Positions 30,216 to 42,709 of a stretch of DNA of 64,000 nt are shown here, in pieces. The stretch's first letter is position 1; each line of letters begins with the position of its first letter. Position numbers and translations under genes: made by a program. The stretch comes from Dulcicalothrix desertica PCC 7102. GTDB lineage: Bacteria > Cyanobacteriota > Cyanobacteriia > Cyanobacteriales > Nostocaceae. Location: the NCBI RefSeq assembly GCF_003991905.1, contig NZ_RSCL01000001.1:868654-932653 (forward strand), given 5' to 3'. The notes under the pieces are model-generated. The model did not search any database, was not told the origin of the DNA, and was given only the letters and a program-made list of their open reading frames with translations.

Positions 30216-33200
30216 ATGTTTAGAAAAATTAAAATTGGTACAAAGATTGGCGCCGGATTCGGAGTAATATTAGCTGTTGTAAGTGGGATTGGCTTTATTA
30301 CATATCAAACTACGAATAATTTAGTTTTAAATGCTGGGTGGCAAGCTCATAGCTATGAAGTGCTAGGTGAGTTGAAAAATTTAAACTTACATTTACAATC
30401 AGCAGAAGCATCGCAGCGTGCTTTTATTGTTACAGGTGAACAGCGTTTTTTACAACCTTTTGATGGTGCCATAAGTAGTTTAGAAAAAAGCTTAATCAGA
30501 ATACGTAAATTAACATCCGATAATTCTGAGCAGCAAAGCCTTATTAGCAAGCTTGAAGTATTAATACCTCAAAGAGTAGATATAATTAGAAATCGAATTT
30601 CATTACGTCAAAATCAAGGATTTGAAGTTGCAAGACAGGAAGTTGCCTCAGATAAAGGTCGAGAGCTTACAAACCAAATTAGAAGTGCAATATCTGAAAT
30701 TGAAAAAGATGAAAGAGCTTTGTTATATTTGCGTTCTCAAAATACTAAAAAATCTACCGAGCAAGCATTCAATGCTATTTCACTTGGTGTACCTTTTATC
30801 ATTTTACTACTAATTTTAATTGTTATTTATCTAAATCGAGAAATTTCTCATCCTTTACGCGAACTTTCTAATAAAACAGTTGCACTTGCCGATGGAGATT
30901 TATCGGTAAGTATTCACGATAAAAAACGTGAAGATGAAGTAGGTATGCTGGTAAAAGCATTCAACCGCATGGTTGCTAATTTACGCGATAAATCAGAATA
31001 TAGTCAACAACAAACTTGGTTAAAATCTAATTTAGCTAAGTTTTCTCAAATGCTGCAAGGACAGCGTAATTTACCCATTGTTGCCAAAATTATCCTCAGC
31101 GAACTGGCGCCGCTTGTAAATGCCCAGCAAGGTGTATTATATCTTAAAGATGCTGATAGTGAACCACCTGTACTAATTTTACTTGGTAGCTATGCATACC
31201 AACAACGCAAAAATCTGTCGAATAGGTATCAGTTAGGGGAAGGGTTAGTAGGACAATGTGCTTTAGAAAAGCAAAAAATAGTACTAACAAATGTTCCTGA
31301 TGATTATATTCAAATTAGTTCAGGGTTAGGTGAAGCAAAACCAAAAAATATTATAGTATTGCCAATATTATTTGAGTCAGAAATTACGGCAGTAATTGAA
31401 TTAGCATCGTTTCAGGAATTTGAAACACTACACATAACACTATTAGATGAATTGTGCGAGACTTTAGGTGCAGTGCTAAATGCTATAGCATCAGATATTC
31501 GTACAGTCGAGTTGCTCAAACAGTCGCAAGCATTAGCAGAATTACTGCAAAACCAACAAGAAGAACTTCAAGAAAGTAATGAAAGATTAGCAGAACAAGC
31601 AGAAACACTACAAGCATCTGAAGAACTTTTACAACAACAACAGCAAGAATTACAGCAGTCAAATGAAGAATTACAAGAGCTTAATAAAGAGCTAGAGAAA
31701 AAAGCCGAATTGCTAGAATTGCAAAAACAAGAAGTTGAAACAAAAAATAACCAACTTGAAGAAGCACGGCAATCATTAGAAACACAAGCTAGTGAGTTAG
31801 AGCTTTCTTCAAAATATAAATCTCAATTTCTTGCTAACATGTCACATGAATTGCGAACCCCTCTTAATAGCTTACTAATTCTAGCTAAACTTTTATCTGA
31901 AAATAGCGAAGGTAATCTCACATCGAGACAAATAGAGTATAGTAGTACTATTTACGGTGCTGGAAACGATTTGCTAGGGTTAATCAATGATATATTAGAC
32001 TTAGCAAAAATCGAATCTGGCACAATGTCATTCGATTATTACCCGTTACCATTGGTCGAACTCAAGCATTACTTAGAACGTACCTTTAAACAGCTTGCCC
32101 ACAGTAAAGGTTTAAACTTTATACTTGATTTTGCGGCAAATCTCCCATCAAGTATTGATACCGACGCAAAGCGTTTACAACAAGTTCTCAAAAACTTACT
32201 AGCAAATGCCTTTAAATTCACAGAACAAGGAGAAGTACGACTCACGGTAAACTTTGCTTCACATGGTTGGAGTCCTAACAATCAAACCTTAAATCAATCT
32301 AGTTCAGTTATCGCTTTCAGCGTCAGTGATACAGGTATCGGGATAGCACCCGAAAAGCAAAAGATAATTTTTGAAGCATTTCAACAAGCTGATGGTAGCA
32401 CTAATCGTAAACACGGAGGTACAGGTTTAGGTTTATCAATCAGTCGCGAAATTGCGCGCTTATTTGGTGGTGAAATTACTTTATCCAGCCATCCCGGTGA
32501 AGGAAGCACATTTACACTATATCTTCCAATTAATAGTGCTGAGTCTAAGAATAGTGCTGAGTTGAAAGTGCTGAGTGCTGAGTTACATAAAAGTGCCAAA
32601 TCAAACTCAGCACTCACTACTCAGCAATCAGCACTCAATACTTCTTACTCAGCACTCAGCACTCAGCACTCTTCACTATTTGATGACCGAAAAAATATTC
32701 AACCTGGCGAACATGTATTATTAATAATTGAAGATGATATAACTTTTGCGCGTATTTTATACGACATGGCGCAACAGCAAGGTTTTAAATGTGTTATTGC
32801 TCAAAATGGTAATAGCGGAATATTACAAGCACGTCAAATTAAACCTTCAGCAATTTTATTAGATATTGATTTACCAGGAATCGATGGTTGGATGGTGTTG
32901 GATAGATTGAAGCACGATGTAAACACACGTCATATTCCTGTACATGTAATGACGGTAGAAGACGGGAAACAGCGGAGTTTACAGCAAGGTGCAATGGCAT
33001 ATTTACAAAAACCTGTTACCAGAGAAGAAATTAGCGATGCTTTAAATAGAATAAAAGTATTTATAGAGCGACCACTGAAATATTTACTTGTTGCCGAAGA
33101 CGACGAAATACAGCGTCAAAGTATTATCGAACTTATTGGTGGTGATGATGGTGATGTTAATATTACTGGTGTAGGGACAGCCGAACAAGCTTTATTCTCA

Positions 33201-33887
33201 ATTCGTTCGCGACGCTTTGATTGTATGGTTCTCGATTTGGGACTGCCAGATATGGATGGCTTTGAGCTAATTGAACTAATTAAGAAGGAAAAAAATGGTG
33301 AATCCTTACCTGTTATTATTTATACAGGTAAGGAAATTACCAAAGCACAAGAATTTGAATTACGGCGAATCGCAGAAACAATCATTATTAAAGACGTAAA
33401 CTCTCCGGAACGACTGCTCGCCGAAACGTCATTATTCTTGCATAGAGTTCAAGCCGAACTACCTGCTACTCAGCAAAAAATACTTGAAAAATTACAATCA
33501 AGCGACAGTATTCTTACAAATAAAAAAGTTTTAATTGTAGATGACGATGTTCGTAATATTTTTGCCCTAACTGGTTTACTCGAAAAATACAGTATGCAAG
33601 TAATATACGCTGAAAATGGTAAAGAAGGTATCGAAGTTTTACAACAAAATCCCGATACCAATGTCATACTTATGGATATAATGATGCCTGAAATGGATGG
33701 TTACGAAACTACCCGTCAAATTCGTCAAAATCATCAATTTAAATCTTTACCCATTATTGCCCTTACTGCTAAAGCCATGCAAGGCGACCGTGAAAAATGC
33801 ATCGAAGCAGGCGCCTCAGATTACATTACTAAACCCGTTGACACTGAACAGCTACTTTCGCTTTTAAGAGTATGGTTGTACGATTAA
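30216..33887 (+). CDS. Large hybrid sensor histidine kinase (CHASE3-HAMP-GAF-HisKA-HATPase-REC-REC-REC)
   Basis: 1223 residues. Order: membrane helix (about 10-30), CHASE3-like helical sensor, second membrane helix (about 188-208), HAMP (about 210-262), GAF (about 285-420), long Gln/Glu coiled coil (about 430-530), HisKA with His544 in NMSHELRTPLNSL, HATPase (about 650-770), then three receivers. REC1 has LLDIDLPGIDG, REC2 LDLGLPDMDG and REC3 ILMDIMMPEMDGYETT. Between HATPase and REC1 (about 773-819) a Ser/Ala-rich stretch derives from a heptamer repeat in the DNA. The three receivers suggest a branched or cascaded phosphorelay. The gene is alone. Confidence 0.93.
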   Translation: MFRKIKIGTKIGAGFGVILAVVSGIGFITYQTTNNLVLNAGWQAHSYEVLGELKNLNLHLQSAEASQRAFIVTGEQRFLQPFDGAISSLEKSLIRIRKLTSDNSEQQSLISKLEVLIPQRVDIIRNRISLRQNQGFEVARQEVASDKGRELTNQIRSAISEIEKDERALLYLRSQNTKKSTEQAFNAISLGVPFIILLLILIVIYLNREISHPLRELSNKTVALADGDLSVSIHDKKREDEVGMLVKAFNRMVANLRDKSEYSQQQTWLKSNLAKFSQMLQGQRNLPIVAKIILSELAPLVNAQQGVLYLKDADSEPPVLILLGSYAYQQRKNLSNRYQLGEGLVGQCALEKQKIVLTNVPDDYIQISSGLGEAKPKNIIVLPILFESEITAVIELASFQEFETLHITLLDELCETLGAVLNAIASDIRTVELLKQSQALAELLQNQQEELQESNERLAEQAETLQASEELLQQQQQELQQSNEELQELNKELEKKAELLELQKQEVETKNNQLEEARQSLETQASELELSSKYKSQFLANMSHELRTPLNSLLILAKLLSENSEGNLTSRQIEYSSTIYGAGNDLLGLINDILDLAKIESGTMSFDYYPLPLVELKHYLERTFKQLAHSKGLNFILDFAANLPSSIDTDAKRLQQVLKNLLANAFKFTEQGEVRLTVNFASHGWSPNNQTLNQSSSVIAFSVSDTGIGIAPEKQKIIFEAFQQADGSTNRKHGGTGLGLSISREIARLFGGEITLSSHPGEGSTFTLYLPINSAESKNSAELKVLSAELHKSAKSNSALTTQQSALNTSYSALSTQHSSLFDDRKNIQPGEHVLLIIEDDITFARILYDMAQQQGFKCVIAQNGNSGILQARQIKPSAILLDIDLPGIDGWMVLDRLKHDVNTRHIPVHVMTVEDGKQRSLQQGAMAYLQKPVTREEISDALNRIKVFIERPLKYLLVAEDDEIQRQSIIELIGGDDGDVNITGVGTAEQALFSIRSRRFDCMVLDLGLPDMDGFELIELIKKEKNGESLPVIIYTGKEITKAQEFELRRIAETIIIKDVNSPERLLAETSLFLHRVQAELPATQQKILEKLQSSDSILTNKKVLIVDDDVRNIFALTGLLEKYSMQVIYAENGKEGIEVLQQNPDTNVILMDIMMPEMDGYETTRQIRQNHQFKSLPIIALTAKAMQGDREKCIEAGASDYITKPVDTEQLLSLLRVWLYD
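32533..32672. repeat. Heptamer repeat (AGTGCTG/CAGCACT) inside the hybrid kinase gene
   Basis: Copies of GTGCTGA on the left and CAGCACTCAG on the right face each other, forming an inverted array of about 140 bp. The sequence is in frame and encodes Ser/Ala/Glu/Thr/Gln-rich linker. GTGCTGAGTGCTGAG also occurs at 57763, so it is a mobile or amplifying short repeat. Confidence 0.8.
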
Positions 33888-35923: not shown

Positions 35924-36883
35924 TTAAAAATTCTTTGTGTAATTACTCGTCCATTCTAGTAAGTTAAGTTTGTGTAATATAATTTGTCTTGCTTCTGCGA
36001 TTGCTTCAGAGGCTTCGTACCAAGCATCGGGTGTTGCTGTTACTTCTTGGATGTACTTTAAACCTTTTTCGTCTAAGCTTGGTAAACGTAAAAAGCTACC
36101 TGGTGGTAATAGCTTATCTGCGGCGCCTCCTCCGTAATATATTGGTAAGCACCATGCTAACAGTGAATCCCACATTTTTTCGCTGACGTATAAATCATTG
36201 CTAGCATAGTTTTCAATTGCTAAATTGTATCGGTAAGGCGCCATTGCGTGCCATTTGTTGGCAAGTTCTCCCCCAGATGCTACCCAAGTTGGTAAATTAC
36301 GTCCGTAAAAATCACAATCAATTTGATGATTCTGTAATAACCGTAAAAATTCTAATCGCTGACGATGGTTTGCTGTGCGGCTTATTCCTGATGTTATCCA
36401 ACTGCATGTGCGAGTTTTTTCTGGTACTGGCATTTCGTTGAGTTCGCGGAACGAGTTACTGTGATACCAAATTGCAGGCATGTATTCGGGTGTTGGCGCC
36501 GCGTTATCAGATGCGGATACATAACCGCAGTATTTAGTTGCCCATTCGTAACATGCTAAATTTGTTTCGTTAACTTCTTCAAGGGGTGGTTCGCGCCAAA
36601 GAAAGATAATTCGTTCTTTAGGGACTCCACGCAATAAAGGTTGCATTTCTTCTTCGCTAAACGAGGCGTAATGAAGTTCGGGTCTGAAGAATAAATATTT
36701 GTTTTTAAATACTGGGCGAATGCCTGCAAAATTGTACAGAAGTAAGAAGTCGGGTTTTTCAGCTTTGGCAAGCATTTGAATATTGCCCCACACACCAAAT
36801 TGGTAGGGGGTTTGTTGCCATAACCAATCGCTTTGATTAACTCCTGGATACTCAGTTAGCATTCCAACGATTTTTTTACTCAT
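35924..36883 (-). CDS. GT10-like (fucosyltransferase-type) glycosyltransferase
   Basis: 319 residues. The C-terminal half has the GT10 signature: YRYNLAIENYASNDLYVSEK then MWDSLLAWCLPIYYGGGAAD, where the E-x-Y-V-(S/T)-E-K-x-W motif binds GDP-sugar. The N-terminal half is GT-B-like. Family members move fucose or a related sugar from GDP-fucose. The presence of such an enzyme suggests a deoxy-hexose in the glycan. Donor is inferred. Confidence 0.8.
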   Translation of the reverse strand: MSKKIVGMLTEYPGVNQSDWLWQQTPYQFGVWGNIQMLAKAEKPDFLLLYNFAGIRPVFKNKYLFFRPELHYASFSEEEMQPLLRGVPKERIIFLWREPPLEEVNETNLACYEWATKYCGYVSASDNAAPTPEYMPAIWYHSNSFRELNEMPVPEKTRTCSWITSGISRTANHRQRLEFLRLLQNHQIDCDFYGRNLPTWVASGGELANKWHAMAPYRYNLAIENYASNDLYVSEKMWDSLLAWCLPIYYGGGAADKLLPPGSFLRLPSLDEKGLKYIQEVTATPDAWYEASEAIAEARQIILHKLNLLEWTSNYTKNF

Positions 36884-36905: not shown

Positions 36906-38120
36906 TTAATTAATTACCTGCGGACGCATTGATTCTTCAACATAATTTAAAATATTGAGAATTCTGCTTTCCCATGAAAATTGCTGCGCGTAGTTAATAC
37001 TGTCTATATATCCTTCTGTTTGACGTGGGTATTTATCTAGCGCGTATTTTATTGCGTCAGCAAATTTGTGCGGGTTATCTGGTTCACACCAACATGCTAT
37101 TAAGGGGGAATCTTTGAATGGCATTAAGGGTAATATTTCTGTGGTTACTATAGGAGTTCCAGATGCCATGTATTGGAAAAATTTTACTGGGTTGGTATAG
37201 TCGGCTTCTTTTCCTGATAGGTGAGGATGTAATAGTAAGTCGGCGCCTTGAAATAAGCTAACTAACCGTTCGCGTGGCATTACCCAACCTAAGAAACTGA
37301 TGTTTGAGATATTTTTCTCTTTGGCTATTTGTCTATATGTTTCGACTTGGGCATCTTTTCCTCCGGTAACGACAAATTGGATATGAGGCATTTGTTCTGC
37401 TACTTCGATAAGTAGGTCGATACCTTTAAATTTATATAAAGCACCTGAGTAAACAACTAATATTTGTCTGCCATCTTGAAGTAGTTCTTGGCGCCAGTTT
37501 TGTGCAAGTTCTGGTTGACGTTCTAAAAACGATTGCTCAAAACCGTTATATACCCATGCTACTTTTTCTGGTGGCATTCCTTGCTCAATTAAGCTTTGAC
37601 GTACTGGTTCAGATTGAGTGATGGCAATTTGAAAGTAGCGACTATTTATAATTTCGGGTTCAAATGGTATTGTTTGAAAGTGATGTTTTTCAAATATCAC
37701 GGGAATTTGGTTTTTTACTGATGCTTTGACAAAATTCCAATCGCGTGTGTGTACTAACTTGGTGTGGCGCCGTAAATGAAATGGAAAGTAGTATTTTGTG
37801 GCAATGGTGCTAGAGTTTGTGAGTTTGCCTGGTACTCTGTCTATAGGATATGGCATTGGTAACGGCGCCACTTTTAGATGTTCTTGGGTATTATAAAAAG
37901 CTACAAATTTAGCGTCTGGTTTTTGTAGTTTAAAAGGATTAAATAACCAAGATAGATTTAATGGGTTAGCCTTTTTATTGTGGTAAGCTAACACAGAAGA
38001 GTAACCCAAGTTTGCAGCAGCATTCGCACAAAGTACATCGTGTATTTCATGTGCTGTATCAGGTTTGAGCGAAAGTTCTCCTGTATAAAACAGGTATTTG
38101 TTTTGATTTTTAGAAGACAT
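36906..38120 (-). CDS. GT4-family glycosyltransferase
   Basis: 404 residues. The GT-B fold's C-terminal domain has VYSGALYKFKGIDLLIEVAE, FVVTGGKDAQVETYRQIAK and the E-x7-E region GADLLLHPHLSGKEADYTNP, VKFFQYMASGTPIV. It belongs to GT4, which uses NDP-sugars with retention. It starts 7 bp after the ABC exporter stop. Confidence 0.88.
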   Translation of the reverse strand: MSSKNQNKYLFYTGELSLKPDTAHEIHDVLCANAAANLGYSSVLAYHNKKANPLNLSWLFNPFKLQKPDAKFVAFYNTQEHLKVAPLPMPYPIDRVPGKLTNSSTIATKYYFPFHLRRHTKLVHTRDWNFVKASVKNQIPVIFEKHHFQTIPFEPEIINSRYFQIAITQSEPVRQSLIEQGMPPEKVAWVYNGFEQSFLERQPELAQNWRQELLQDGRQILVVYSGALYKFKGIDLLIEVAEQMPHIQFVVTGGKDAQVETYRQIAKEKNISNISFLGWVMPRERLVSLFQGADLLLHPHLSGKEADYTNPVKFFQYMASGTPIVTTEILPLMPFKDSPLIACWCEPDNPHKFADAIKYALDKYPRQTEGYIDSINYAQQFSWESRILNILNYVEESMRPQVIN

Positions 38121-38127
38121 GTTGCTA

Positions 38128-40479
38128 TTACAATCCTATTTTTATTTTAGAATTTCCGTTTTGTTGATATTCAAGTCCATTACTGGAACTAGTAGAATTT
38201 AAAGATTTAGATTTTAAAAAATCTTCTAATTCTTGAATCGTATCCAGTAAATGAATTGCCGCATAATAAATATTTTTAATAATTTCCTTTTGCTCAGATG
38301 TTTGAACCTGATCATCTACAATTAGCGGCAACGAATGTAACATAAAATTTAAATGAGTACGTAACTTCTTAACAAGACGGTCAAGGTCATCTCGATATAC
38401 TTTATACGTATCATTTACTGATGTAATAAAGGTGGTTTGCAGTTTGACAATATCCTCAAATACTTCAATAATATTCTCGACGCGCGCTGTAGATTTACGT
38501 ATTTCTTCAATAAGTTCTTCCCTCTCCTGCGAGTTTTCTGCTTCGTCGAGTAATAATTGCAAAAACCCAATCGTTGGATTTAGTCGTGTCCGTAATTCGT
38601 GGGGTATGCGAACTAAATTCTGATTGTGAGTTAGTACTTCTGTATTTTGTCCATTCGTTAATTTAACTTCTGCAAATTGCTTTTCAGAATCTTCGGCGCC
38701 AAATTGCATCGTGTAAAGTCGTGTATAATAGCCACCTTTCTGTAAAAGTGAGTTGTGAGTTCCGACTTCTACAACTTTTCCTTGGTCTAAAACCGCTATT
38801 TGGTCAGCAGCTTGAACTGTAGATAAACGGTGGGCAATAACTAAAGTTGTTCTGTCTTTACTCAAGTCATCGATAGCTGCTTGCACAACTCGTTCAGATA
38901 CAGTATCAAGCGCACTAGTTGCTTCATCGAGAATTAAAATCTCTGGGTTTTGTAATAATGCACGTGCTATAGCTAATCTTTGTCGTTGTCCCCCCGATAG
39001 CATTACACCTCTATCACCTATTAGCGTATCAAAACCTTGTGATAGCTTTGTGACAAACTCATAAGCATTCGCGCGTTGGGTAGCAGCTATTATTTCTTCT
39101 TCGGTTGCGTCGGGTTTTCCGTATGCAATGTTATATCGTACTGTGTCGTTAAACAAAAATGTATCTTGACTAACAATACCCATTGCACGACGTAATGACT
39201 GAATATCAAATTCTTTCAAATCTACGCCATCTAATAAAATACTACCAGAAATTACATCATAAAAGCGCGGTAACAAGTCCGCCATTGTTGATTTTCCGGC
39301 GCCTGAACTACCAACTAAAGCTAAAGTAGTACCCTTCGGCAAAAACAAATCGACTTCTTTTAATACTAATTTGTCGCTACCTGGGTAAGCAAAAGAAATC
39401 TTATTAAAATGAATTCCTTTTTCAAGCGCTTTGTAAATCTTTGCTCCCCGACTCATAAACGGCTTATTGTCACGTCTCAGAAAATCGTTAGCAATAGATA
39501 CACTTGTTGAAGCGTTCGCAAAGCTACTACGAATTGCATTTAGCTGAGATATAAAAGGCAGTAAACGCAGAAGTACTAATAAATATGTAAAGATTACAGT
39601 CGAAAGTGAGGAAATTTGAGATGCGAATAAATACTTACTAAGCAGTATAATCATTACCAATGCTGTAATTCCCATTACCTCACTAACGGGTGTGATTGCC
39701 TCAGAATTTGCTTGCGATTTAAAATCAGCTTGTTCGCGGTTGCGAATTAATTTGACAATTTTTGTATATTCGCGGTCTTCATTAGCTGTTGCGCGTACTA
39801 AACGCATTCCGTTCATTACTTCCAAAACGGTTATCGAATATGCTCTTGACATATCCGAAAGCAATTTACCATAATCTTTCGACCGAGAAATTGCATATTG
39901 GTTGACTAATGTTACAAGTGATAGTAAAAATGTTGCTGCTATCGTTAACTGCCACGAAATAGAGAGCAATACACCAATAAATACGAAAATTGTAATAACT
40001 AAAATTGAGACCCGAATGACAGTATTAACAGAACTCGCTGCTTTTCCTAACTCTGCACTCAAGCTATTAATCGCATCACCAACTTTGGTTTTGACGAAGT
40101 AATCTAAATCGACTTCTAACAAGTTTTTTAAACCTGCTTCCCGCATGTCAGTAGTCAATGTGCGTGCAAGTGAACTTGATGTTAAAGTGCTTGCATAGCT
40201 GGCAAGATTTTTTAATATAATAGTTAATATAATTGCTATTGCCATGACCAAAGTACGATAATCTTCTGGTACTCGGTCGAAAGGTCGCATTACAATTTTT
40301 AATATATCTGGTGCGTTATTTAGTTCAATATCTAGCCCAATAATTTTTAAAACAACTGGTACAATTAGCGTAGTACCAACTCCATTAAATAAGGCGCCAG
40401 AAAATCCTAGTAGGAATGTCAGAAGCATCCAACCAGGATAAGGTTTAGCAAATCTAATTAAAAGTTTAAAAGTGGACAT
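38128..40479 (-). CDS. ABC exporter (MsbA/HepA-like) fused to two tandem histidine-kinase DHp-like domains
   Basis: 783 residues from ATG 40479; an upstream ATG at 40608 would overlap the previous gene by 118 bases and adds non-homologous residues. Residues 1-340 are six membrane helices (RFAKPYPGWMLLTFLLGFSG onward). Residues about 360-590 are the ABC ATPase with Walker A LVGSSGAGKST (about 390), signature LSGGQRQR (about 495) and Walker B LILDEATSALD. After that, where family members end, residues 624-685 read PHELRTRLNPTIGFLQLLLD with His627, a HisKA box, and a second copy reads KLRTHLNFMLHSLPLIVDD about 80 residues later, with Lys at the His site. No HATPase follows. Probable role: glycan export with regulated activity. 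Confidence 0.85.
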   Translation of the reverse strand: MSTFKLLIRFAKPYPGWMLLTFLLGFSGALFNGVGTTLIVPVVLKIIGLDIELNNAPDILKIVMRPFDRVPEDYRTLVMAIAIILTIILKNLASYASTLTSSSLARTLTTDMREAGLKNLLEVDLDYFVKTKVGDAINSLSAELGKAASSVNTVIRVSILVITIFVFIGVLLSISWQLTIAATFLLSLVTLVNQYAISRSKDYGKLLSDMSRAYSITVLEVMNGMRLVRATANEDREYTKIVKLIRNREQADFKSQANSEAITPVSEVMGITALVMIILLSKYLFASQISSLSTVIFTYLLVLLRLLPFISQLNAIRSSFANASTSVSIANDFLRRDNKPFMSRGAKIYKALEKGIHFNKISFAYPGSDKLVLKEVDLFLPKGTTLALVGSSGAGKSTMADLLPRFYDVISGSILLDGVDLKEFDIQSLRRAMGIVSQDTFLFNDTVRYNIAYGKPDATEEEIIAATQRANAYEFVTKLSQGFDTLIGDRGVMLSGGQRQRLAIARALLQNPEILILDEATSALDTVSERVVQAAIDDLSKDRTTLVIAHRLSTVQAADQIAVLDQGKVVEVGTHNSLLQKGGYYTRLYTMQFGAEDSEKQFAEVKLTNGQNTEVLTHNQNLVRIPHELRTRLNPTIGFLQLLLDEAENSQEREELIEEIRKSTARVENIIEVFEDIVKLQTTFITSVNDTYKVYRDDLDRLVKKLRTHLNFMLHSLPLIVDDQVQTSEQKEIIKNIYYAAIHLLDTIQELEDFLKSKSLNSTSSSNGLEYQQNGNSKIKIGL

Positions 40480-40489
40480 TGGTAATATA

Positions 40490-41659
40490 TTATTTATATA
40501 ACTTATTGATAACACTTGCGAGCGTTGTAGCCATAGTGGAAGTACTATATTTTTCAATACAGCGGGTTCTGGCTTTACGTCCTTTAACGGTTGCGGTATC
40601 AAAATCATTGAATATGACTTCGATTTGTGCAGCTATTTGTTCGGGTGCTGATGGTTCAACTAAATAACCTGTATCAGCTAATATCTCAGGTATATCACCT
40701 ACACAGGTAGAAATCACAGGTTTACCCATTGCCATTCCGTCTGTTAACTTTAGAGGAAACTGTGCGCGTGCGACTACGGTATCGCGCTGTGGTACAACAA
40801 CAACATGCGCTGCTGCCACAATTTCTGGCATCGCTTCTACTGGCTTTTTTGGTAATTTAATAATCCAACGTCCCCATTTACTAATTAATTGCTCATCGTA
40901 ATTATCATATGGACTGCCACCGACAATTACTAACCGCAAATCATCACGATTAAGTTTATCGAGTGCTATCAATACGTCTTCAACACCTTTATGTGGACGC
41001 GGGGCGCCGGGAAACATCAAAATGCGATAATTTGAAAGTCCATACTTAGAGCGACTTGCTTCAGGGTCGTATTTATCTGGGTTAAACATTTCGGTATCTT
41101 TACCATTTGGTACATAAACACCCCCAAATCTATCCTGAAGAAATTCTGTATCAATAGTTATGCCATCTGCCCACTTAACCAAACTTTCCATCCAATTAAT
41201 ATAAACTGGATGGTCAGGAAATCTAAGGGCGCCGTTCGATTTGAGAATATCACGGGCAAATTGTTTAATTCCTGGTTGGTACTTCCAATCAAAACCACCA
41301 TGCCAACTTAGTTCCCAGTCATCCATATCAACCAAAACCGGACGATGACGACTTAATTTATCAAGCAATGCCACACCAAAGCTAGTTGGTTTTGGCTTAA
41401 CTGCGTAAATTACATCACCCGATAGCTTTTGCCGTAATTGTCGCGCTGACCCAAAAAACTGAGGATAATTGCTACCAGCTATAGAAATAACTGGAATTCC
41501 ATCAGGGGGTATGGCATATAAATCTTTGCCGAAATTAAAACCGACAACTTCGACGTCATAATTAAGTTGCTTGAGGACTTGAGCTAGTAAATAAGCTCTA
41601 ACCGTCCCTCCTCCAGAGAGGTCGCTAACAACTAATGAAAACTTTAATTGATTTGCCAT
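40490..41659 (-). CDS. GT4-family glycosyltransferase
   Basis: 389 residues from ATG 41659; a TTG at 41668 would add three residues. GT-B fold: N-terminal LKFSLVVSDLSGGGTVRAYL, C-terminal FPGAPRPHKGVEDVLIALDK, LVIVGGSPYDNYDEQL and the nucleotide loop HVVVVPQRDTVVARAQFPLK, LTDGMAMGKPVIS. Probably adds an early sugar to the glycan. The ABC exporter starts 10 bp after it. Confidence 0.88.
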   Translation of the reverse strand: MANQLKFSLVVSDLSGGGTVRAYLLAQVLKQLNYDVEVVGFNFGKDLYAIPPDGIPVISIAGSNYPQFFGSARQLRQKLSGDVIYAVKPKPTSFGVALLDKLSRHRPVLVDMDDWELSWHGGFDWKYQPGIKQFARDILKSNGALRFPDHPVYINWMESLVKWADGITIDTEFLQDRFGGVYVPNGKDTEMFNPDKYDPEASRSKYGLSNYRILMFPGAPRPHKGVEDVLIALDKLNRDDLRLVIVGGSPYDNYDEQLISKWGRWIIKLPKKPVEAMPEIVAAAHVVVVPQRDTVVARAQFPLKLTDGMAMGKPVISTCVGDIPEILADTGYLVEPSAPEQIAAQIEVIFNDFDTATVKGRKARTRCIEKYSTSTMATTLASVINKLYK

Positions 41660-41674
41660 TACTCCCAACGTGCC

Positions 41675-42709
41675 TTACTGCGATTTATCTGGACTAAGTT
41701 TACCAAGGCGCAAAATTTTAGTAGAAATAAAGTTAATTATTTTTTGGCTTCGTGACCCACGTAAGTTTTCATATAATAAAGACTGCGGTAAAACCATTCG
41801 TAGTAAGTAAGCTATAAACAAACTAAACCTACTATTTACTTTAAACTTTCCATTAAACAGTTGAACCGGATAATTTACAATTTTTCCTAATTTAAAAAAG
41901 TTATTTGTATCTTTTTCAATTAAAGTTTGTTCTAAAAAATACTTTATTCCTGGCTGAGAATAATGTCTTAACTCATCACTTTTACCGGCTTCAATTTCGT
42001 ATAGTAAAACATAGTAGTTTTTCATATACTCCCAATTGTTGGTTCTATTGGTTTCGTGTTTGGTGTAAAAAGTACCAACAATCGGTGTATATATATAATC
42101 TATGCCTAATGCTAATAAACTGAGTGCAAAATCTCTATCTTGTAAAGCCTTAAGACGGCTATCAAAAGATGCAGCTTGCAAAACTTCTTTTTTAATCAAC
42201 ATGCACTGCTGCAACACTGGGAACGGTGATTTAGCAAGAAAATCAGGTAAAAGTAAACGCTGTTTTAACTCTTCACGATTTAACGAACCGATAATATTTT
42301 GCTCACGACTGATAATATTTTGGTTACTGTCAAGGAATACGCGCTCATAGTCACAGTAAAGTACAACGTTTTGGTTTTCTAACTTTTCTAAACAACTCAA
42401 CTGAAACCGCGTTTTATCTTCGTGAATCCAATCATCTGGGTCTAAACACTGAATCCATTCACCCAAAGCTTTTTCAATACCCAAATTACGCGCAGTAGAT
42501 ACACCACCATTTTCTTTATAAAAATATTGTACTCGCTCGTCAGTAGCCATTAACCGTTCTGCTACTTCGCGAGTATTATCTGTTGACCCATCATCAACTA
42601 AAATACATTCTATATTAGTGTAAGTTTGTGCTAAAACGCTTTTAACACATTTTTCTAGATAGCTAGCTCGGTTGTAGCATGGTAAAATAATTGAGACTAA
42701 AGGAGTCAT
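41675..42709 (-). CDS. GT2-family glycosyltransferase
   Basis: 344 residues. GT-A fold with VSIILPCYNRASYLEKCVKS, the nucleotide strand ECILVDDGSTDNTREV and the DXD-type WIQCLDPDDWI. It also has a long C-terminal tail without a recognised domain. It is the first gene of the seven-gene operon, so the promoter is expected in the 280 bases upstream. Confidence 0.9.
   Translation of the reverse strand: MTPLVSIILPCYNRASYLEKCVKSVLAQTYTNIECILVDDGSTDNTREVAERLMATDERVQYFYKENGGVSTARNLGIEKALGEWIQCLDPDDWIHEDKTRFQLSCLEKLENQNVVLYCDYERVFLDSNQNIISREQNIIGSLNREELKQRLLLPDFLAKSPFPVLQQCMLIKKEVLQAASFDSRLKALQDRDFALSLLALGIDYIYTPIVGTFYTKHETNRTNNWEYMKNYYVLLYEIEAGKSDELRHYSQPGIKYFLEQTLIEKDTNNFFKLGKIVNYPVQLFNGKFKVNSRFSLFIAYLLRMVLPQSLLYENLRGSRSQKIINFISTKILRLGKLSPDKSQ

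Follow-up and report, generated by a model that had tools for sequence, protein, structure and literature searches.

An ABC exporter of cyanobacterial glycan loci carries a HisKA-derived tail in which His and Tyr interchange at the acceptor position

Introduction

Several described proteins combine a transporter and a two-component domain in one chain. Examples are CrbS and other SLC5/STAC kinases (PMC5715377) and a kinase-fused ammonium transporter (PMC5764959), and these fusions contain a histidine kinase. Here we describe an ATP-binding cassette (ABC) exporter from the cyanobacterium Dulcicalothrix desertica PCC 7102 that has, in contrast, only a HisKA-derived tail without a kinase ATPase. 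It is encoded in a 64,000-nucleotide stretch (contig NZ_RSCL01000001.1, positions 868,654 to 932,653, forward strand), the whole of which we call the window. The tail recurs in most relatives of the exporter that we compared, where the position of the phosphoacceptor is held by Tyr more often than by His, and it probably serves some purpose other than carrying phosphate.

In DivL of Caulobacter, a pseudo-histidine kinase, Tyr takes the place of His in the dimerization and histidine phosphotransfer (DHp) domain. According to the DivL report (PMC4211667) this residue is Tyr550, R553 is needed to bind phosphorylated DivK (DivK~P), and the Y550H substitution leaves binding unaffected and harms the cell. 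The exporter family shares with DivL the Tyr at this position, in most of its members, and the Arg three residues on. DivL is a PAS-DHp-CA protein, whereas the exporter has the DHp part only, fused to a transporter and duplicated in two families, and the window protein itself has His. On the transporter side, HepA (NF045513) and MsbA (TIGR02203) have the exporter core in common with the window protein, which falls under the HepA cut-off of 725 bits; the HepA model (610 positions) stops before the tail. In BmrA (PMC11774805), a homodimeric exporter, the chain continues past the ATPase as a helical extension that matters for activity; that extension is a helix in two short parts, whereas the window tail is a predicted HisKA-derived bundle. 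No ABC exporter with a tail of this kind is named among the open-licence texts listed by our literature searches, judged by title and the start of the abstract, and a term search of the main text of a phylum-wide exopolysaccharide study (PMC4594306) found neither HisKA nor histidine kinase, MsbA or HepA. Transporters fused to histidine kinases are already known; an exporter with only a repurposed, acceptor-tolerant DHp tail appears to be a new variation on them.

An ABC exporter with a HisKA-derived tail

The open reading frame (ORF) at 38128-40608, on the minus strand as are all features of this gene, is open throughout and encodes a half-size ABC exporter followed by ~190 further residues. 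The likely start (MSTFKLL) lies at 40479, just after the end of the upstream glycosyltransferase ORF at 40490, which gives a gene at 38128..40479 and a protein of 783 amino acids; an in-frame ATG at 40608, overlapping the preceding gene, would give 826. The ABC transmembrane region (PF00664, ABC_membrane; 39568..40305, residues 102-347 of the 826-residue ORF, E 4.7e-21) and the ABC ATPase (PF00005, ABC_tran; 38914..39363, residues 416-565, E 3e-32) stand together in one half-transporter, as in type I exporters of the MsbA kind. In the same numbering, MsbA chains from the PDB match residues 89-637, and the best NCBIfam match is HepA (NF045513, a heterocyst-formation exporter), which covers residues 47-636 at 536 bits and thus falls short of the equivalog cut-off of 725 bits.

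The C-terminal tail is a genuine HisKA-derived domain. Pfam HisKA (PF00512, curated cut-off 26.9 bits) matches the whole protein at 37.0 bits (E 3.5e-9) and the isolated 190-residue tail at 41.2 bits (E 1.7e-10), so the similarity that a first-pass annotation of this DNA had read from the letters is borne out by profile search. The match to the isolated tail, copy 1, covers 38437..38604 (residues 626-681 of 783, or 669-724 of the 826-residue ORF) and places His627 (codon 38599..38601) at the phosphoacceptor position of PF00512, where most relatives have Tyr. That annotation had called the HisKA box around His627 almost exact; the position and the profile match stand, but the box reads HELRTRL against the HELRTPL typical of the kinases of this genome. 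It had also supposed that the exporter carries no kinase ATPase, and HATPase_c indeed has no match at E <= 1 in the whole protein (Pfam), which therefore does not count as a histidine kinase. A second, decayed copy follows at 38212..38400 (residues 694-756 of 783), with Lys704 at the acceptor position.

Distribution of the tail

Matches to the exporter at E <= 1e-100 were found in 54 of 60 relatives' genomes, with more distant HepA-like paralogues counted. Sampling the phylum evenly (386 genomes) gave matches at E <= 1e-125 in 76 genomes, every one of them in the window's class. The 164 ORFs at E <= 1e-100 were reduced to 111 rows by removing those with identical last 220 residues, and the tail is present in 102 of these rows, 59 with two copies and 43 with one, spread over 23 family groups of one class. 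Two-copy tails belong to the window's family (f1, 54 rows) and to f31 (5 rows), and one-copy tails to the other families; the copy class was set by tail length, except that L082 was assigned to the one-copy class by hand, and a later check found no second copy there. The 102 tails include two rows from some genomes (G024, G087, G120 and G179) and both members of a nearly identical pair (L054 and L101), and the sample leaves out a second match of G098, a split match of G029 and further HepA-like matches. The nine tailless rows are the outgroup paralogues L172 (the genome's own more distant paralogue) and L164, the truncated ORF L088, and six others. Residual tail DNA behind tailless exporter copies was sought and gave only unconvincing matches of E 0.05-0.8 in two related rows.

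A frameshift or mis-join of two genes, which the first-pass annotation had raised as a possible origin of the fusion, is rejected because many genomes carry this fusion in an open frame. Its presence in 102 of 111 rows, together with the stable glycan locus described below, indicates that it is neither a sequencing artifact nor a local accident. Routine annotation is nevertheless likely to miss many such tails, since those with Tyr mostly fall under the Pfam cut-off: in a scan of the tails of ten relatives all ten matched HisKA at E 0.002 or better but three exceeded the cut-off, and of the six with Tyr in copy 1 five were below it. A motif pattern search in the window's own genome returned 42 matches against 61 for a backward control and was discarded as useless.

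Two copies of the tail

Copy 2 is a decayed duplicate of copy 1. A second, diverged copy with Lys at the His position had been proposed about 80 residues on, and Lys704 is found 77 residues from His627. When the copies of 57 two-copy rows were aligned separately (L161 and L162 excluded, as in the copy-2 counts) and compared profile to profile, copy 1 matched copy 2 with a probability of 99.7% (E 2.8e-26, 64 columns), while 20 column-shuffled controls reached 2.1% at most. A profile built from the HisKA domains of 30 kinases in the window's genome matches copy 1 at 98.9% and copy 2 at 95.9%. A profile of one-copy tails matches the window stretch behind copy 1 at E 3.2e-15, and of the 59 two-copy rows it recovers a second copy at E <= 0.001 in all but L162, which gives 0.067 (58 of 59). 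Mean identity between the window protein and the 47 rows of other genera in its family is 63.2% for the membrane part, 79.4% for the ATPase, 51.3% for copy 1 and 26.3% for copy 2.

The L091 genome has two tailed exporters close together. In one of them the acceptor positions hold Asp (copy 1) and His (copy 2), which reverses the usual arrangement, and this is the only His in the copy-2 alignment. Family f31 also has second exporter paralogues that are more diverged, L161 and L162; their tails are ~265 residues long and have Tyr in copy 1.

The acceptor position

The acceptor state is inherited yet flips repeatedly between His and Tyr. Over the 102 tails the His position of copy 1 holds Tyr in 62, His in 34, Asp in 2, and Val, Gly, Phe and Arg in one each, so that the DivL-like replacement of His by Tyr, not seen in the window protein, is the state of most tails. 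Within the window's family (n=54) the counts are His 32, Tyr 19, Asp 2 and Val 1; outside it (n=48) they are Tyr 43, His 2 and other 3. On a careful tree of 60 rows, 11 changes among His, Tyr and other suffice, against a mean of 21.3 in 200 label shuffles (never below 16), and at least 16 changes are needed on a quick tree built from the exporter core of 111 rows with the tail left off, a tree that has long branches and came with warnings. Well-supported flips separate L025, which has His, from its Tyr-bearing neighbors L122 and L123, and L126, also with His, from the Tyr group of L127 and its four relatives. Parsimony favors Tyr as the basal state both of the ingroup and of the window's family, by a single step, with Tyr tied with 'other' at the ingroup base, and counts 5-6 gains of His and 4-5 regains of Tyr; a Tyr ancestor would thus be narrowly preferred, and not firmly.

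For comparison we used 50 of the 150 HisKA matches listed for the genome of the window, namely the 30 best and all but two of the 22 weakest, counted by eye. The underlying scan, in which 150 of 250 candidates were scored and the tail of the exporter itself does not appear, is not a complete census; the genome holds at least 150 such domains. Among the 50 controls His is present in 49 and Pro at +5 in 43, while Pro+5 occurs in none of the 102 exporter tails. The missing Pro would not by itself prove inactivity, as 7 of the 50 control domains are also without it.

Conserved positions and structure models

Several positions near the acceptor are almost invariant in the 102 tails, with Arg+3 in 101, Leu+6 and Leu+15 in 99 each, Leu+13 in 98 and Glu+25 in 97; Glu+1 (95, with Asp in 4), Gly+11 (93), Asn+7 (89) and Asp+18 (88) are also conserved. 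Conservation is similar in the 62 Tyr tails and the 34 His tails, at Arg+3 (62 vs 34), Asn+7 (53 vs 31) and Gly+11 (56 vs 33). Positions +3, +7, +11 and +15, an i+4 series, form one conserved stripe on helix 1, which we presume to overlap the receiver-docking face of kinase-regulator complexes.

A model of the tail, built from a 4-row alignment with a mean predicted local distance difference test (pLDDT) of 59, suggests with moderate confidence a four-helix bundle in one chain. The top rows of a VIA-align search with it are designed and unrelated four-helix bundles and so point to a common arrangement only; a DHp domain is not named among the best 50 rows of either the Foldseek or the VIA-align list.

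The glycan locus

The exporter sits in a stable glycan locus. Fourteen window proteins were compared with 676 ORFs of at least 100 amino acids in 47 neighborhoods, these being the 48 loci longer than 10 kb minus that of the paralogue L172 (the other 63 of the 111 rows entered this analysis with short loci only); some contigs end near the gene. A group 1 glycosyltransferase (Pfam Glyco_trans_1_4/Glycos_transf_1; 40490..41668, minus strand, as for the other glycosyltransferases named here) lies immediately upstream of the exporter, on the same strand, in 42 of the 47 neighborhoods, and a glyoxalase-II-like gene lies within the locus in 34. The family 2 glycosyltransferase of the same cluster (41675..42709) recurs in 7 of 47, the downstream group 1 glycosyltransferase (36906..38120) in 15, the family 10 glycosyltransferase (35924..36883) in 18, and the two putative mannosyltransferase genes (PF11051; 33945..35895, minus strand) in 18-19.

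Convergent with this cluster, the window encodes a CHASE3-HAMP-GAF hybrid histidine kinase with three receiver domains (30216-33887). A close relative of this kinase beside the exporter was found in none of the 47 neighborhoods, and the kinase is the best match, of the 14 window proteins, of some ORF in 8 of them; a dedicated kinase or regulator in cis is unsupported by this comparison, which is blind to kinases of unrelated families. At four loci (L080, L088, L146 and L163) the exporter has a response regulator nearby, encoded on the opposite strand and with 87-93% identity across four families; we take it to resemble RpaA. Two of these four exporter rows are tailless, one of them the split ORF L088.

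Discussion

The reading that we favor, and hold to be reasonably probable, is that the tail is a kinase-derived bundle that works independently of phosphorylation, docking a partner or tuning the ATPase domains. The tail probably acts as a docking or assembly part and not as a phosphate carrier, because the acceptor position is Tyr in most relatives. We suggest that an MsbA/HepA-like exporter in a glycan gene cluster captured the DHp/HisKA domain of a histidine kinase, and that a tandem duplication of the tail followed in f31 and the window's family. Phosphotransfer would have become dispensable, leaving His and Tyr interchangeable at the acceptor, while the bundle of helices and one conserved stripe on the surface of helix 1 would have been kept. 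In the one-copy form, the two subunits of a presumably homodimeric exporter would jointly build the bundle; in the two-copy form, each subunit could make its own from copy 1 and the decayed copy 2. The bundle may lie under the ATPase domains, where it would dock a partner protein or tune ATPase closing and in this way perhaps affect transport. The dimerization clamp that the first-pass annotation had offered as one option was a sound suggestion.

Several observations weigh against this reading. The acceptor state is clearly inherited and not fully free to drift (11 changes against 21.3), and all 7 rows of the window's genus have His. Six non-truncated ingroup rows are without the tail, and the exporter can thus manage without it. 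The bundle model reaches a mean pLDDT of only 59 from its 4-row alignment, Foldseek with this model gave no match at E <= 0.001, and a model of the ATPase together with the tail (pLDDT 38) is uninformative on where the tail is placed.

A special case of the docking proposal, which we regard as possible though somewhat unlikely, draws on the analogy with DivL: the bundle would bind the receiver of a response regulator, perhaps only when phosphorylated, and gate export without transcription. The tails share the DivL pattern, with Tyr or His at the acceptor in 96 of 102 and Arg+3 in 101, and the +3/+7/+11/+15 stripe is conserved; the genome has at least 150 HisKA domains, and the window encodes the three-receiver hybrid kinase. 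In Caulobacter DivL (PMC4211667), R553, the residue at +3, is required for docking of DivK~P, which is unchanged in Y550H. Yet Arg+3 is also normal in active HisKA domains, being present in most of the controls, and could be inherited or structural, and since Y550H harms the cell though docking is kept, the Tyr of DivL is not freely exchangeable. Nor is a regulator gene conserved beside the exporter (any match in 8 of 47 loci), and of the four loci with a recurring regulator, two have tailless exporter rows, one of these a split ORF. It is more doubtful that a kinase in trans phosphorylates His627, as the first-pass annotation had proposed, or that a receiver returns phosphate to it, coupling export to a signal. 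Such a role is possible in the window's genus, where all seven rows have His, and it would fit the His of 34 of the 102 tails and of 32 of 54 in the window's family, as well as the acidic residue kept after the acceptor (Glu in 95, Asp in 4); relatives without His could have lost the function. As a conserved function it is weak: Tyr is the majority state (62 of 102) and the narrowly preferred ancestor, by one step, and the other motif residues are about equally conserved in Tyr and His tails. Pro+5 is found in 0 of 102, though 7 of 50 control domains are likewise without it, no kinase conserved nearby was found in the 47 neighborhoods, where the hybrid kinase has matches in 8, and the Tyr-bearing DivL domain (PMC4211667) works without kinase activity.

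More unlikely again is a captured kinase piece that is now functionless and drifting. The six tailless, non-truncated ingroup rows and the mean identity of only 26.3% in copy 2 would agree with this, but the same comparison gives 51.3% for copy 1, and identity reaches 95% or more at five positions over 102 tails from 23 families; drift would not leave such near-invariant positions, which make a functionless relic unlikely.

Kinase dimerization domains are usually read as phosphate carriers, and here one stands on an exporter in 23 family groups. The 62 tails with Tyr for His offer a natural test set for phosphate-free DHp function, and the tail is a candidate means of controlling the export of cell-surface glycans directly, at the post-translational level. 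As a speculation that we consider unlikely to hold, the tail might represent a lineage-wide, direct two-component output onto a transporter, in which the Tyr/His-tolerant DHp bundle would be a receiver docking port and a regulator would switch export post-translationally without DNA, the tandem copy having made an autonomous port within one chain out of a bundle that had spanned two subunits.

Two further proteins of the window's own genome combine HisKA stretches with the lack of a HATPase match. On contig C10 (L224:2275-4317), a protein of 680 residues has two receivers, PAS domains and two HisKA stretches, in the second of which Leu, as read by eye, replaces the His, and is an unrelated second case of tandem HisKA without a kinase ATPase. 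The other, on contig C23 (L223:1317-2249), is a protein of 310 residues with a His-bearing HisKA and no HATPase match in Pfam, in which the helix linker resembles, by eye, that of the exporter tails.
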